Assembly: GCA_947499555.1 (NCBI GenBank)
Contig: CANMOU010000003.1
Span: 186,001-250,000 of the forward strand
DNA length: 64,000 nucleotides
Source of the DNA: an uncultured Roseovarius sp.
GTDB taxonomy: Bacteria > Pseudomonadota > Alphaproteobacteria > Rhodobacterales > Rhodobacteraceae
Direction: 5' to 3'
Within the stretch, counting starts at the first letter, position 1. The number at the start of each line of letters is the position of its first letter. Under the pieces are notes generated by a model, which searched no databases, had not been told where the DNA came from, and was given only the letters and a program-made list of their open reading frames with translations. The translations under genes were made by a program, and so were the position numbers. Of this stretch, positions 33,357 to 38,125 are shown one piece after another.

Positions 33357-34226
33357 ATGGACCAGACCGCTCCTGCCATCGCCATCCTTCCCTATCACGT
33401 GAAGCCCGGGCTTTTCCCGCGTCAGATCCCGCTTGATGAGCTCTTTTGGCCCTTGGGACGCCCGGATCGCCTCAAGCTCATGGGCCAGACCCTGCGCGAC
33501 CTGCTGCCGTCGGATCATTTGGTGGCCTTCATCTCTACCGTTTTACATGTGCAACCGTGGCGTGCGACGCGGGCGAAGCTGTCTGCAATGGTGCTTGAGC
33601 CCGAAGCCATTCATGCCAAGCATATGAGGCGCCTGAGGGTGTCGCATCGGCGGTTTCACAAGGTCCTGAGTTGCAACACCGGGCTGTTGGAGGCCATCCC
33701 AAATGGCATCTTCTTTCCTCTGGGCGGGGCTTGGGCAGAGGATTGGCAGGTCCGTCCGCATCTGAAGACGAAAATGTGTTCGCTAATTGCGTCTGCGAAA
33801 CGCGACCTGCAGGGGCATGTTCTGCGCCACAACACGGTGGACTGGGTGCGCGCCGAAGCGCTTGATGTCGATGTTATGGGCGGAGGCTACGACCCGTTTG
33901 AGAAGAAATCCGATGGTTTGTCCCCATACCGGTATTCGGTAGTGATCGAGAACGTCCGGGAACCAAACTACTTTACCGAAAAGTTGATTGACGCGGTTCT
34001 GTGCCAATCCGTGCCGATCTATTGGGGCTGCCCGAATATTGGTGAATTCATGGACACGTCAGGCATGGTGATTTGCGAGACCGAAGAGGCCTTGCGAGCC
34101 GCAATTATGGCGATGTCGGACGATGGCTATGCCGCGCGCTTGCCCGGACTTCTCAAGGCGCAGGAGGCCGCTTCGTCATATGCCAATGTTTATGAGCGTG
34201 CGGCGCGGGCCGTGCTCGAGGCCTGA
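33357..34226 (+). CDS. Glycosyltransferase family 10 (fucosyltransferase-like)
   Basis: A 289-residue protein whose C-terminal half contains the GT10 donor-binding block: YRYSVVIENVREPNYFTEKL, then ID and AVLCQSVPIYWGCPNI (about residues 190-230). GT10 enzymes transfer fucose or related sugars from GDP donors onto surface glycans. The N-terminal half is divergent. The final 37 bases overlap the 3' end of the convergent GT-A gene. With the PAPS synthetase behind it, it suggests a locus for decorated surface polysaccharide. Confidence 0.8.
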   Translation: MDQTAPAIAILPYHVKPGLFPRQIPLDELFWPLGRPDRLKLMGQTLRDLLPSDHLVAFISTVLHVQPWRATRAKLSAMVLEPEAIHAKHMRRLRVSHRRFHKVLSCNTGLLEAIPNGIFFPLGGAWAEDWQVRPHLKTKMCSLIASAKRDLQGHVLRHNTVDWVRAEALDVDVMGGGYDPFEKKSDGLSPYRYSVVIENVREPNYFTEKLIDAVLCQSVPIYWGCPNIGEFMDTSGMVICETEEALRAAIMAMSDDGYAARLPGLLKAQEAASSYANVYERAARAVLEA

Positions 34227-34912
34227 CGCTGAGGCCAGATCCCGAAATGTGCATGAAGCAGGGCCGCTGTGGCGCGATTTGCGGCATCGCGTGAAAGGCC
34301 GTCCGCCATCATGTCTTGCAGCGCATGCGCATCATCAAAAGCTGTTTGTATCAAAGCGCGCGCGGCGGGTGCTTGCGCAACAGGAATGCCCTGCCGGGCC
34401 AACTGGCCGGAAAGCCAGACATCATCGACGGACCGTGCGCAATCTGGCGGCGTAAACTCCGGCCCCGCCAACCATTCCGGTCTGACGGAAACGCCGCTGA
34501 ACCCCTGCGCGATGTCGCAGCCAGTACCAATGCGCCCGAGCCGTTCAACACCCCAGGCAGAGCCGGTTGTCGCGACCTGCCGGTCTTCATCGAGAAGCGC
34601 TGCCGCCCAGCCGGGACCATAGATCCAGTCATCATCGCAATAAAGAAGGCGCAGCCCCTTGCCGACCAAAGCTTCGGCCGCAGGCAGCACTTTGGTGGCA
34701 GGCCCGTAATCTTTCTCGGCCCACAAGATATTGACGCCACTGGGCAGGTCAGGTGGCAAGACTGCCCCGGGAAAACGGGCGTAGCGACGCGGCAGTGCAA
34801 GCAAAATGAATTCTGGCGCAGGTGACTGCGCCAGAAGACTGTTCAAAACAGGTCCGAGACGATCAAATCTCGGCGGGATGGTGGTGAGTGAGACCGCGTA
34901 GCGCGGGATCAT
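34190..34912 (-). CDS. Putative GT-A fold glycosyltransferase
   Basis: A 240-residue protein with the start of a GT-A nucleotide-sugar fold (AVSLTTIPPRFDRLGPVL, residues 6-23) and a LLYCDDDWIYGPGW motif near residue 90. The aspartates there would bind the metal and sugar nucleotide. A second acidic site occurs in SVDDVWLSGQLARQG. The exact family and sugar are not clear. Its ATG overlaps the stop of the upstream PAPS synthetase gene by four bases, so the two form a tightly coupled operon, a strong hint that they work in the same pathway. Confidence 0.72.
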   Translation of the reverse strand: MIPRYAVSLTTIPPRFDRLGPVLNSLLAQSPAPEFILLALPRRYARFPGAVLPPDLPSGVNILWAEKDYGPATKVLPAAEALVGKGLRLLYCDDDWIYGPGWAAALLDEDRQVATTGSAWGVERLGRIGTGCDIAQGFSGVSVRPEWLAGPEFTPPDCARSVDDVWLSGQLARQGIPVAQAPAARALIQTAFDDAHALQDMMADGLSRDAANRATAALLHAHFGIWPQRQASSTARAARS

Positions 34913-36987
34913 CCGGCAATAAGGCCCATCTGCTCCAGCTTCAGGATGACCTGATGCGCGCAGTTGTCGACCTCGACATTTTCGGTTTCGACGCGCAATT
35001 CAGGGCTTTCAGGCACATCGTAAGGATCTGAAATCCCGGTGAATTCCTTTATCTTGCCTTCGCGGGCCAGCTTGTAGAGCCCCTTGCGGTCACGCCGTTC
35101 GCATTCTTCGATCGAGGTTGCGACATGCACTTCGACAAAGGCGCCGAAGGCTTCGATGTCTTCACGCACCGCGCGCCGGGTTGTGGCGTAAGGCGCAATT
35201 GGCGCACAGATGGCGATACCACCGTTCTTGGTGATCTCAGAGGCGACGTAACCGATGCGTCGGATGTTGAGATCGCGGTGCTCTTTGGAGAACCCAAGTT
35301 CGGACGACAGGTTCTTACGCACGATATCCCCATCAAGCAGTGTTACCGGGCGTCCGCCCATCTCCATCAGCTTGACCATAAGGGCATTGGCGATGGTGGA
35401 TTTGCCCGAGCCCGAGAAGCCGGTGAAAAACACCGTGAAGCCCTGTTTGGAGCGCGGCGGTTTCGTCTTGCGCAATTCGGTGACCACCTCGGGGAACGAG
35501 AACCACTCGGGAATTTCAAGACCTTCAGACAGGCGGCGGCGTAACTCGGTGCCGGAGATATTGAGGATGGTCACGTTGTCCTTATCGGCAATCTCATCCA
35601 TCGGCTCGTACTGAGCGCGTTCCTGGACATAGACCATGTGCTTGAAATCGACCATTTCGATTCCGATCTCGGCCTCGTGCTGGCGGAAAAGATCCTGCGC
35701 ATCATAGGGCCCGTAGAAATCCTCGCCAGCAGAGTTCTTGCCGGGCCCGGCGTGATCGCGACCAACGATGAAATGCGTGCAGCCATGGTTTTTGCGAATG
35801 AGCCCATGCCAGACCGCCTCGCGTGGGCCGGCCATGCGCATGGCGAGGTTAAGCAGGCTCATTGTCGTGGTGGAAGCAGGGTACTTATCAAGCACCGCCT
35901 CATAGCACCGTACGCGCGTGAAGTGATCAACGTCACCCGGTTTGGTCATGCCGACGACGGGATGAATGAGCAGGTTGGCCTGCGCCTCTTTCGCTGCGCG
36001 GAAAGTCAGTTCCTGGTGGGCGCGGTGCAAGGGGTTGCGGGTCTGGAAGGCCACAACCTTGCGCCACCCCAGCTTGCGGAAGTAGGCGCGCAGTTCATTG
36101 GGTGTGTCGCGACGTGCGCGGAAGTCATAGTGGACGGGCTGCTGAATACCCGTCACCGGGCCGCCAAGGTAAACCGAACCAGCCGTATTGTGCAGATAGT
36201 TGACCGCGGGATGGGCGTCGTCATCCGCGCCAAAGACCTTCTCAGCCTCACGAGCCTTGTCAGGTGTCCAGCGATCCGTAACGGTCATTGTGCCCAAGAT
36301 CACGCCTTCCTGATCGCGCAGGGCGATGTCCTGGCCCAATTCGATGCTTTCGGCAAAGGCTTCACTCACATCCAGAGTGACTGGCATGGGCCAGAGGCTG
36401 CCATCGGCGAGGCGCATGTTTTCGACAACACCATTATAGTCGTCTTCGCTCAGAAAACCCTTGAGCGGGTTGAAGCCGCCATTCATCAAGAGCTCCAGAT
36501 CGCAGATCTGGCGCGGGCTGAGGTCCCAGCTTGTCAGGTCTGCCGCTTCAACCTTGAGCTTTAGGGCGCTTTCATAAGACACGTACAGTTCGGGGATGGG
36601 GGCGAGGTTACTTTGCACAATCGATGTCCTGTGTTTGAGGGGTACAAGGCCGCTCGTCGTGCCGGTCAGTTCGGCATGAAGAGCATCATATTCAGCGAAT
36701 TTTCGCGTGAGAAACTGATCTGTGAGACGTATTTTTTCTGCCGCACCACGGGAGGTGATAGCGTAGGCGTATCGCTGACGTTTGTCCGGGCCATCGCGGT
36801 CGCCGATCTTGATGAATCCTGCATCGACAGCACGCCGCAAAAGGGCGTTCAGACGCCCAAGTGAAATCCCAAGCGCGGACGCGGTGGTGCGCTGAGACGC
36901 CTCGGGCGCGAGGTCGAGTTGTCGCAAAAGGCGGAAGAGTTGATCTTCCTCCTCCAGGCTTGGCTTTGTCTCTGGAGACAACATCAT
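34909..36987 (-). CDS. sat-cysC: MarR-like winged helix fused to ATP sulfurylase/APS kinase (PAPS synthetase)
   Basis: One uninterrupted frame of 692 residues. Residues about 10-110 form a winged helix like EPS-associated MarR regulators (TASALGISLGRLNALLR, then YAYAITSRGAAEKIRLTDQF). Residues about 124-510 are ATP sulfurylase with QTRNPLHRAH near 312 and GRDHAGPG. Residues about 512-690 are APS kinase with the P-loop GFSGSGKST near 521. Together the enzymes make PAPS from sulfate and ATP. A second start, GTG at 36618 preceded by AGGA at 8 bases, would give a normal 569-residue enzyme, so both fused and unfused forms are possible. The upstream start could be ATG 36987, ATG 36984 or GTG 37023. 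Confidence 0.9.
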   Translation of the reverse strand: MMLSPETKPSLEEEDQLFRLLRQLDLAPEASQRTTASALGISLGRLNALLRRAVDAGFIKIGDRDGPDKRQRYAYAITSRGAAEKIRLTDQFLTRKFAEYDALHAELTGTTSGLVPLKHRTSIVQSNLAPIPELYVSYESALKLKVEAADLTSWDLSPRQICDLELLMNGGFNPLKGFLSEDDYNGVVENMRLADGSLWPMPVTLDVSEAFAESIELGQDIALRDQEGVILGTMTVTDRWTPDKAREAEKVFGADDDAHPAVNYLHNTAGSVYLGGPVTGIQQPVHYDFRARRDTPNELRAYFRKLGWRKVVAFQTRNPLHRAHQELTFRAAKEAQANLLIHPVVGMTKPGDVDHFTRVRCYEAVLDKYPASTTTMSLLNLAMRMAGPREAVWHGLIRKNHGCTHFIVGRDHAGPGKNSAGEDFYGPYDAQDLFRQHEAEIGIEMVDFKHMVYVQERAQYEPMDEIADKDNVTILNISGTELRRRLSEGLEIPEWFSFPEVVTELRKTKPPRSKQGFTVFFTGFSGSGKSTIANALMVKLMEMGGRPVTLLDGDIVRKNLSSELGFSKEHRDLNIRRIGYVASEITKNGGIAICAPIAPYATTRRAVREDIEAFGAFVEVHVATSIEECERRDRKGLYKLAREGKIKEFTGISDPYDVPESPELRVETENVEVDNCAHQVILKLEQMGLIAG

Positions 36988-37002
36988 AACGAAACGACTC
37001 AA

Positions 37003-37030
37003 AATATGTTCACGCGTGAACACATGTCAT
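37003..37030 (-). promoter_or_regulatory. Promoter and 16-bp palindromic operator of the PAPS synthetase gene
   Basis: On the minus strand ATGACA (37030-37025), 16 bases, then CATATT (37008-37003) forms a plausible promoter. The perfect palindrome TGTTCACGCGTGAACA (37007-37022) fills the spacer. A MarR-type dimer bound there would block RNA polymerase. The start codons at 36987/36984 would then lie about 10-15 bases after the transcript start. Confidence 0.6.
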
Positions 37031-37324
37031 AAGTCACGATGTGTTGGAACCCCCTAATTCTAAGGAAACGCACTGTTTCGGAAGTGTTGTCGAAGGGCCA
37101 CGGCCGCGTGGGCGCTCTTGCTTGCTTATGTTTTTGGAAGCGTGACAGGGCGACGGAGGACTGGTTTGCGCCTGAATTGCACTTTGATTGAACGCATCAT
37201 CTCAACGTAATTTGGCCATTTTCCAAAATTAATGCTGTAGCAGAATTGCGTGAAGGAATTTGGTTTGAATACGACCGCCGTTGATTTTGAAGACCAGCAG
37301 TACGTATCTGTGAAGAAACTGCGA

Positions 37325-38125
37325 ATGCACAAGGTCTGGCTTGCGGCTTTTGGAGCCCTCGGATTGACATTGATGTCAGTTCAAGTTGCCAAGGCACAGC
37401 AAACTGACGCGGTAAACTTAGAAGCCGAGGGGCATCTTAAGTCACTTGCTGAAGGCCTGTCGAAACGCTCGCCCTCTCCCAAATTGATAAATGTCCTACG
37501 TGACATTTTCTATCGCTCCGACGTTGATGGCTCGGGTGAAGTCACGGAAAAAGATGCATTGATCAAACAACAAATTGAACATGCCAAGCGCCGAAACAGC
37601 TCGTTTTCTTATTGGGCTTCCCATGATCTGAACGGGGACGCTGTTGTGACCATCGAAGAAATTCGCCAAGTCTACCTGCCCGAAGCGCGCGGTGCCCTGT
37701 TGGGCGTCGGCGTCGCTACAAACACTGTTGACGACGCGAAGATTCAAGTACGGCTTGACGCCAAACTGTCTGGTCGGCTTGAAAGCCTTTTTGACTTTGA
37801 CGGCGACGGCGTCTTCACCTTTGAAGAGGTTGTTGAGGGCGCGGAAGAAAAGTATCCCGCTGATCGTGACGGAATCGCACGACTTGTGCGTGAGCGCGGA
37901 AAACGATGGTCGCCACCAATCCTTGTTGCGCCCATTTTCGATAAAAATAACGATGGCCGAGTGACCGAGGCTGAGTTCTTGGCGCCTTACGAAAGCCTAT
38001 TAGACACCTACGACCAAGATGGAGACGGGGTGCTCGATGCTCAGGAAGTCGAGTCTTTGTCAATCCAGGCGAATGAAAACTTCGAACGAAGACAATCAAC
38101 TGAGCGCTCGCTTTGGCTTGATTGA
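37325..38125 (+). CDS. Exported EF-hand calcium-binding protein
   Basis: A 266-residue protein with a signal peptide (MHKVWLAAFGALGLTLMSVQ, cleavage after AKA) and five EF-hand loops. These are DVDGSGEVTEKD (about 66-77), DLNGDAVVTIEE (101-112), DFDGDGVFTFEE (157-168), DKNNDGRVTEAE (206-217) and DQDGDGVLDAQE (230-241). Most have the full set of Ca ligands. Such periplasmic or secreted calmodulin-like proteins are common in marine bacteria, but their roles are mostly unknown. The start is uncertain, with GTG at 37310 or 37250 as in-frame alternatives. It is divergent from the PAPS synthetase gene. Confidence 0.8.
   Translation: MHKVWLAAFGALGLTLMSVQVAKAQQTDAVNLEAEGHLKSLAEGLSKRSPSPKLINVLRDIFYRSDVDGSGEVTEKDALIKQQIEHAKRRNSSFSYWASHDLNGDAVVTIEEIRQVYLPEARGALLGVGVATNTVDDAKIQVRLDAKLSGRLESLFDFDGDGVFTFEEVVEGAEEKYPADRDGIARLVRERGKRWSPPILVAPIFDKNNDGRVTEAEFLAPYESLLDTYDQDGDGVLDAQEVESLSIQANENFERRQSTERSLWLD

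Follow-up and report, generated by a model that had tools for sequence, protein, structure and literature searches.

A winged-helix regulator joined to a PAPS synthetase suggests a self-repressing, two-product sulfate-activation gene in many marine Roseobacter-type bacteria

BirA and NadR each carry a DNA-binding domain on a nucleotide-using enzyme and control genes of their own pathway, and the corepressor of BirA is its adenylate intermediate. In fungal ATP sulfurylase, the C-terminal domain is a PAPS-binding allosteric site. Stand-alone MarR_EPS proteins (TIGR04176) are small, and the family name links them to exopolysaccharide genes. Two products of one regulatory gene are described for AerR of Rhodobacter capsulatus, whose long and short forms, produced by way of an internal start and its ribosome site, act oppositely, according to the excerpted text of PMC6199135.

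The locus described here lies on the reverse strand of the window, the whole stretch of 64,000 nucleotides of Roseovarius DNA that was analysed. It shares with BirA and NadR the layout of a DNA-binding domain on a nucleotide-using enzyme, but the enzyme is a different one, the domain is of the MarR_EPS type, the only target seen is the gene itself, and an internal start adds a predicted second product free of the regulator. By analogy, BirA may serve as a functional model for the fused enzyme. As in the stand-alone MarR_EPS proteins, the domain scores over the family cut-off, and a strict operator-like site is common to the fused gene and 6 of 28 stand-alone loci, but here the domain is joined to an enzyme. 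The domain order of the bifunctional ATP sulfurylase/APS kinases (NF004040; PDB 2gks, 3cr8) is unchanged and their motifs are retained. AerR differs in being a photoreceptor and not an enzyme, in that its forms differ by 41 residues and in its CTG start, as given in the same excerpted text (PMC6199135). Among the matches listed, we found no published account of a sulfate-activating enzyme fused to a MarR domain, which is weak evidence of absence. The parts appear to be of known kinds, and what appears to be new is the way they are combined, along with the conserved dual start and the site. The features of the locus are the following (window coordinates, strand).

37022..37050, minus: promoter-like stretch upstream of the operator-like site, from the consensus of 145 distinct upstream stretches; promoter role putative
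37008..37021, no strand: operator-like palindrome GTTCACGCGTGAAC, within a perfect 16-base palindrome at 37007-37022
36996..37003, minus: conserved TTTGAGTC between the operator-like site and the long ATG, a putative weak GAG ribosome site that also contains a GANTC sequence of putative role
34909..36987, minus: predicted long product from the ATG, MarR_EPS winged helix, linker, ATP sulfurylase and APS kinase, 692 aa
36664..36951, minus: MarR_EPS winged-helix domain, residues 13-108 of the 692-aa protein
36619..36663, minus: linker holding the internal ribosome site
36627..36630, minus: internal Shine-Dalgarno-like AGGA with the rare Arg codon AGG (AGG in 144 of 145 distinct genes, AGGA in 143 of 145)
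36616..36618, minus: internal start codon GTG (ATG, GTG or TTG in 145 of 145 distinct genes)
34909..36618, minus: predicted short product, bifunctional sulfate adenylyltransferase/adenylylsulfate kinase (NF004040), 569 aa

The open frame 34909..37023 (minus strand) has 704 codons when counted from GTG 37023 and 692 from its first ATG at 36987. Because GTG 37023 sits inside the palindrome, the ATG is the likelier start of the long product. The first-pass annotation, made from the letters alone, had read a MarR-like winged helix in one frame with a PAPS synthetase, and profile searches bear this out. The junction of the two parts is stop-free and in a single reading frame. TIGR04176 matched residues 25-120 of the 704-aa frame at 85.3 bits, against a curated cut-off of 88, and reached 89.7 bits on the excised domain, which places the domain in MarR_EPS. 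The enzyme part matched PF14306 (PUA-like), PF01747 and PF01583, and NF004040 was matched at residues 134-703 of the 704-aa frame with 1047.2 bits (cut-off 669). By sequence, a DNA-binding and a catalytic domain therefore lie on one chain, as in a trigger enzyme. Structure prediction, which the annotation had proposed for the N-terminal part, returned a MarR/PadR winged-helix fold, the fold of the MarR superfamily. The motifs QTRNPLHRAH, GRDHAGPG and the P-loop GxSGSGKST, which we take to be active-site motifs of the ATP sulfurylase/APS kinase enzyme, were invariant in 55 aligned fused proteins (55 of the 90 fused loci). By sequence the best solved relatives were PDB 2gks, 3cr8 and 1i2d/1m8p, the last presumably fungal ATP sulfurylase; in the 36 PDB sequences found, the best stretches started at query residue 130 or later and none covered the winged helix. 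A full-length AlphaFold model for inter-domain contacts was too poor (pLDDT 71, pTM 0.44) and was discarded.

When 394 family genomes (393 genera) were searched with the first 122 residues of the window protein, 90 close matches to the MarR part were obtained (E <= 2.2e-37), of which 88 lay in frames of at least 690 codons, one in a frame of 601 codons ended by the contig and one in a frame of 267 codons. None of the 90 had an internal stop, which disposes of the idea that homologues always carry a stop between the two parts. A further, diverged joined frame of 713 codons was seen in G296 (locus L118), and the full joined frame thus occurs in at least 89 of the 394 genomes, across many genera. 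In a second set of 273 relatives, loci were picked by a MarR-part motif and the best 80 were kept; the enzyme was in frame with the MarR part in all 80, of which 79 were complete and one was shortened. Removal of 22 duplicates and three odd rows left a pooled set of 145 distinct genes, to which the first set contributed 88. Ahead of the internal start, at least 121 codons were open in every one of 167 rows (duplicates included). Named carriers include Roseovarius, Aliiroseovarius, Shimia, Thalassovita, Planktotalea, Phaeobacter italicus and Sulfitobacter undariae. In a family search, some fused matches held one stop inside the match while the downstream frames still ran to about 694-701 codons; we take these single stops to precede the long ATG. 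Outside the family, a search of 385 class genomes gave frames of about 700 codons only in G000 and G210, both of which belong to the family itself, and the other matches listed had frames of at most 343 codons. On plasmids, 522 records matched the protein, and among the 30 matches listed none started before residue 119, so that no fused copy was seen.

Selection on the joined frame was assessed by dN/dS in 61 qualifying pairs, with each gene in at most two pairs and dS outside 0.05-2.5 excluded. In the MarR part the median over 35 pairs was 0.10; the linker, which has only 18 codons, gave 0.04 over 27 pairs, and the enzyme front 0.07 over 34 pairs. The value for the MarR part argues against only the 63-kDa protein being made. 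The absence of stops from the MarR frame of these rows is by construction, the rows having been cut as open frames; the stop-free frame rests on the read-through search of the 394 genomes and on the 80 of 80 motif-picked loci. The MarR domain is absent in many relatives, including one genome of the same genus (G278), and its proposed control is therefore dispensable.

The DNA-binding side also gains an operator-like site, which the first-pass annotation did not contain. Of the 90 fused loci, 88 carried a strict GTTCA-N4-TGAAC upstream of the long start; of the two exceptions, L050 starts inside the site at a contig end and L055 has one base changed. Upstream of 50 unfused orthologues, which are those most similar to the window's enzyme and not a random sample, no strict site was found, and one had a loose site. 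Among 58 further named fused loci, 57 carried the strict site and the remaining one a loose site. Overall, 96 strict sites occurred in 1.22 Mb of fused loci versus one in 0.68 Mb of unfused loci. The loose pattern GTTC-N6-GAAC was present two or more times in 19 of the 90 fused loci. The four central bases of the palindrome are variable, and 29 of 88 sites have a self-complementary centre.

The order in the 145 distinct upstream stretches was CTTT-N-C, TG-N2-AT, palindrome, TTTGAGTC, ATG; in the window, the TG-N2-AT element matches within 37022..37050 and the CTTT-N-C consensus matches partly. Since the site is conserved, the domain has a MarR/PadR fold and the site follows the promoter-like pair, self-repression via this conserved candidate operator is likely. 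GAGTC, found at 36996-37000 in the window and common between the operator-like site and the long start in fused loci, belongs to the GANTC sequence that we take to be methylated by CcrM; at 36996-37000 it may be only a weak ribosome site.

In the genome that contains the window, the perfect 16-base palindrome has no other copy; places with at most two mismatches numbered four, versus seven for the reversed control, and strict 14-base sites numbered two, versus two for the reversed control, so neither pattern is enriched there. The second strict site lies inside a 509-codon frame that presumably resembles lnt. Across 21 fused genomes there were 1-14 strict sites per genome (reversed-pattern control 0-3), and the gene's own site was the sole one in six of the 21. 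G202 has one extra strict site, 111 bases upstream of a stand-alone MarR_EPS match. Some species may have a small regulon.

Our analysis suggests that in many marine Roseobacter-type bacteria one gene makes both a joined protein and the plain enzyme, and shuts its own promoter. Comparison of the loci supports the fusion, selection on both of its parts, the internal start, the conserved site and the active-site motifs; from these we infer repression, dimer binding, metabolite sensing and a role for the short form. We consider it probable that the product is a self-regulating sulfate-activation enzyme, with two proteins made from one message, the long form repressing its own promoter and the state of the enzyme as the likeliest signal. 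The long form (~76 kDa) would bind GTTCA-N4-TGAAC at its own promoter as a dimer through the MarR_EPS winged helix, and the dimer on the palindrome would block the promoter. The short form (~63 kDa, start 36618) would be a plain PAPS synthetase that provides enzyme activity. When sulfate is ample, APS or PAPS on the enzyme part would favour DNA binding, and sulfate activation would thereby turn off its own gene. By mixing with the long form, the short form would set the number of DNA-binding dimers through dilution. A more specific arrangement, in which both forms mix in one oligomer and APS/PAPS occupancy together with the long:short ratio decides promoter binding, is possible and is put forward tentatively.

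In this more specific arrangement, sulfate activation would monitor its flux by itself and need no additional sensor, and lineages would gain or lose the control as a removable N-terminal module. If the self-regulating enzyme is real, sulfate activation would count a trigger enzyme among its components, and the conserved dual start would yield the enzyme with and without its own repressor. A single gene with an operator-like site and an internal start offers a direct way of testing how sulfate activation is controlled in this family, and the natural presence or absence of the regulator among relatives eases comparison in marine strains.

As to the signal, a search of the 3.7-Mb genome containing the window found no ATP sulfurylase other than this one. 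Its one CysH (L306, G000:C1:262738-263250) has the CC and CxxC cysteines, which we take to mark the APS-reductase type, and five sulfotransferase matches are present, so that APS would stand at the branch point of reduction and sulfation. The excerpted text of a review gives APS a key modulating role for bifunctional PAPS synthases (PMC3734648). Because of this, and because the CysH cysteines put APS at the branch point, APS is a plausible regulatory signal.

A metabolite may also be unnecessary: the long form could repress its own promoter simply by its amount, with the enzyme part a carrier that aids dimers of the winged helix. Such plain dose control agrees with the conservation of the strict site and the domain (88 of 90 and 57 of 58 loci), with the shortness of the MarR model (105 positions) and with the own site being the sole strict one in six of 21 genomes. 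It leaves unexplained, however, why the regulator is covalently joined to the enzyme and why the linker hardly varies in length (165 of 167 rows have Gly at column -15), and we regard it as less likely than the self-regulating enzyme.

The first-pass annotation had also noted a GTG at 36618 with an AGGA site that would open a separate 569-residue enzyme. Both are present in the window, with AGGA at 36630-36627 and 8 bases between it and the GTG. When the 145 distinct genes were aligned on the junction, the start column held ATG in 124, GTG in 19 and TTG in 2. The Arg four codons upstream was encoded by AGG in 144 of 145 genes and by CGG in one (L108), and elsewhere within the same genes AGG accounts for 54 of 7518 Arg codons. 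The complete AGGA was present in 143 genes; L105 reads AGGT and L108 CGGA. The spacing is fixed: counted in 167 rows (duplicates included), the gap between the end of the site and the start was 8 bases in 148, 7 in 18 and 9 in one, and 18 of the 167 rows read AGGAG, a site one base longer. Columns adjoining the AGG and the start vary in both residue and codon, and other in-frame ATGs were preceded by AGGA in 21 of 2261 cases. At the start column, Val was always GTG (19 of 19, versus 40% elsewhere in the genes) and Leu always TTG (2 of 2, versus 9% elsewhere), although the 145 genes are related by descent and the codon counts are not independent trials; it is therefore the identity of the start codon that is kept and not the residue. 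The pattern is explained by selection for a translation start and not by selection on the residue. The internal start at 36618 is very probably real, and the existence of two products, long and short, is strongly supported by this conservation. The earlier suggestion that the locus might make both a fused and a plain enzyme has thus gained codon-level conservation of the ribosome site and start, while the two proteins themselves are still predictions.

It is improbable that only the short product counts, with the MarR part derived from a regulator gene that lost its stop and the joined protein a tolerated by-product. The internal AGGA does look stronger, by eye, than the weak GAG of the long form, unfused enzymes start near the same point, and L150 retains the AGG-ATG junction without most of the MarR part; but a tolerated by-product does not fit with 90 close MarR matches free of internal stops, 88 of them in frames of at least 690 codons. 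Ribosome-site-like sequences within genes may slow ribosomes, and on this ground the AGG-ATG junction might be a relic or a pause signal in a gene whose sole product is the long form. The exclusive use of GTG for Val and TTG for Leu at the start column, counted in related genes, makes this very improbable. A sequencing or assembly artefact at the junction, such as the frameshift error that the first-pass annotation had considered, is refuted by 145 distinct genes from many assemblies; at least 89 of 394 genomes, and all 80 motif-picked loci, have the two parts in one frame.

Genes recurring within 6 kb of the 90 fused loci were trxB (69), lrp-like (51), hsp20-like (49), purK-like (42) and purE-like (26), named by eye except for trxB and lrp. 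Upstream, trxB was found at 69 of 90 fused and 37 of the 50 similarity-picked unfused loci; downstream, the corresponding numbers were 49 and 30 for hsp20-like, 42 and 21 for purK-like and 26 and 15 for purE-like genes. These common neighbours indicate that in many genomes one and the same locus either has or lacks the regulator part. Fused and unfused loci were mixed in a tree of the enzyme, built by a quick method from 139 rows, with 29 changes versus a shuffled mean of 41 and at least four forced. They were also mixed in the trxB tree (19 changes versus a shuffled mean of 21.8, with 63 of 500 shuffles as low and at least six forced), which was made from the 75 loci that passed the filter out of 106 having a trxB match. 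The mixing may reflect repeated gain, repeated loss or recombination of the regulator part. The only MarR remnant among the 50 unfused loci was L150 (G157), which keeps about 25 residues from the end of the MarR-linker part together with the AGG-ATG junction and is, judging from this remnant, a natural loss of the regulator. L118 (G296) has an N-terminal part 47% identical to that of the window, an unrelated linker and an enzyme start resembling unfused ones. This diverged fusion carries its own AGGA-ATG junction and two palindromes, and is perhaps a second, independent fusion.

In one alignment (A2), 36 of 36 members matched TIGR04176 at E <= 0.001. Six of 28 stand-alone MarR_EPS loci had the strict site, 63-136 bases upstream of the projected start, and it was not found in the other 22; all six belong to the 20 loci from the window's own family, which are among the best-scoring. 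GCGGTAGC occurred anywhere in 23 of the 28 stand-alone loci versus 2 of 90 fused loci, a count that includes GCGGCAGC and compares different regions, as fused loci were searched in the 400 bases upstream of the long start; we take this sequence to resemble the ops element read by RfaH. Closely upstream of many stand-alone genes, TGCGGTAGC recurs (L257-L259, L271, L272, L274, L276, L280, L281, L283).

Among the neighbours within 6 kb of the 90 fused loci, no exopolysaccharide-cluster context was found, and two glycosyltransferase-like frames near the fused gene in the window had no NCBIfam match. The window domain is of the MarR_EPS type and is not an EPS regulator by context. A 240-aa frame at 34190-34912 (minus strand), glycosyltransferase-like by eye and without an NCBIfam match, has a four-base overlap (ATGA) with the fused gene at the stop of the latter. 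On the other side, a divergent gene at 37250-38125 (plus strand) encodes several EF-hand-like repeats, with weak matches, all below cut-off, that include lanmodulin.
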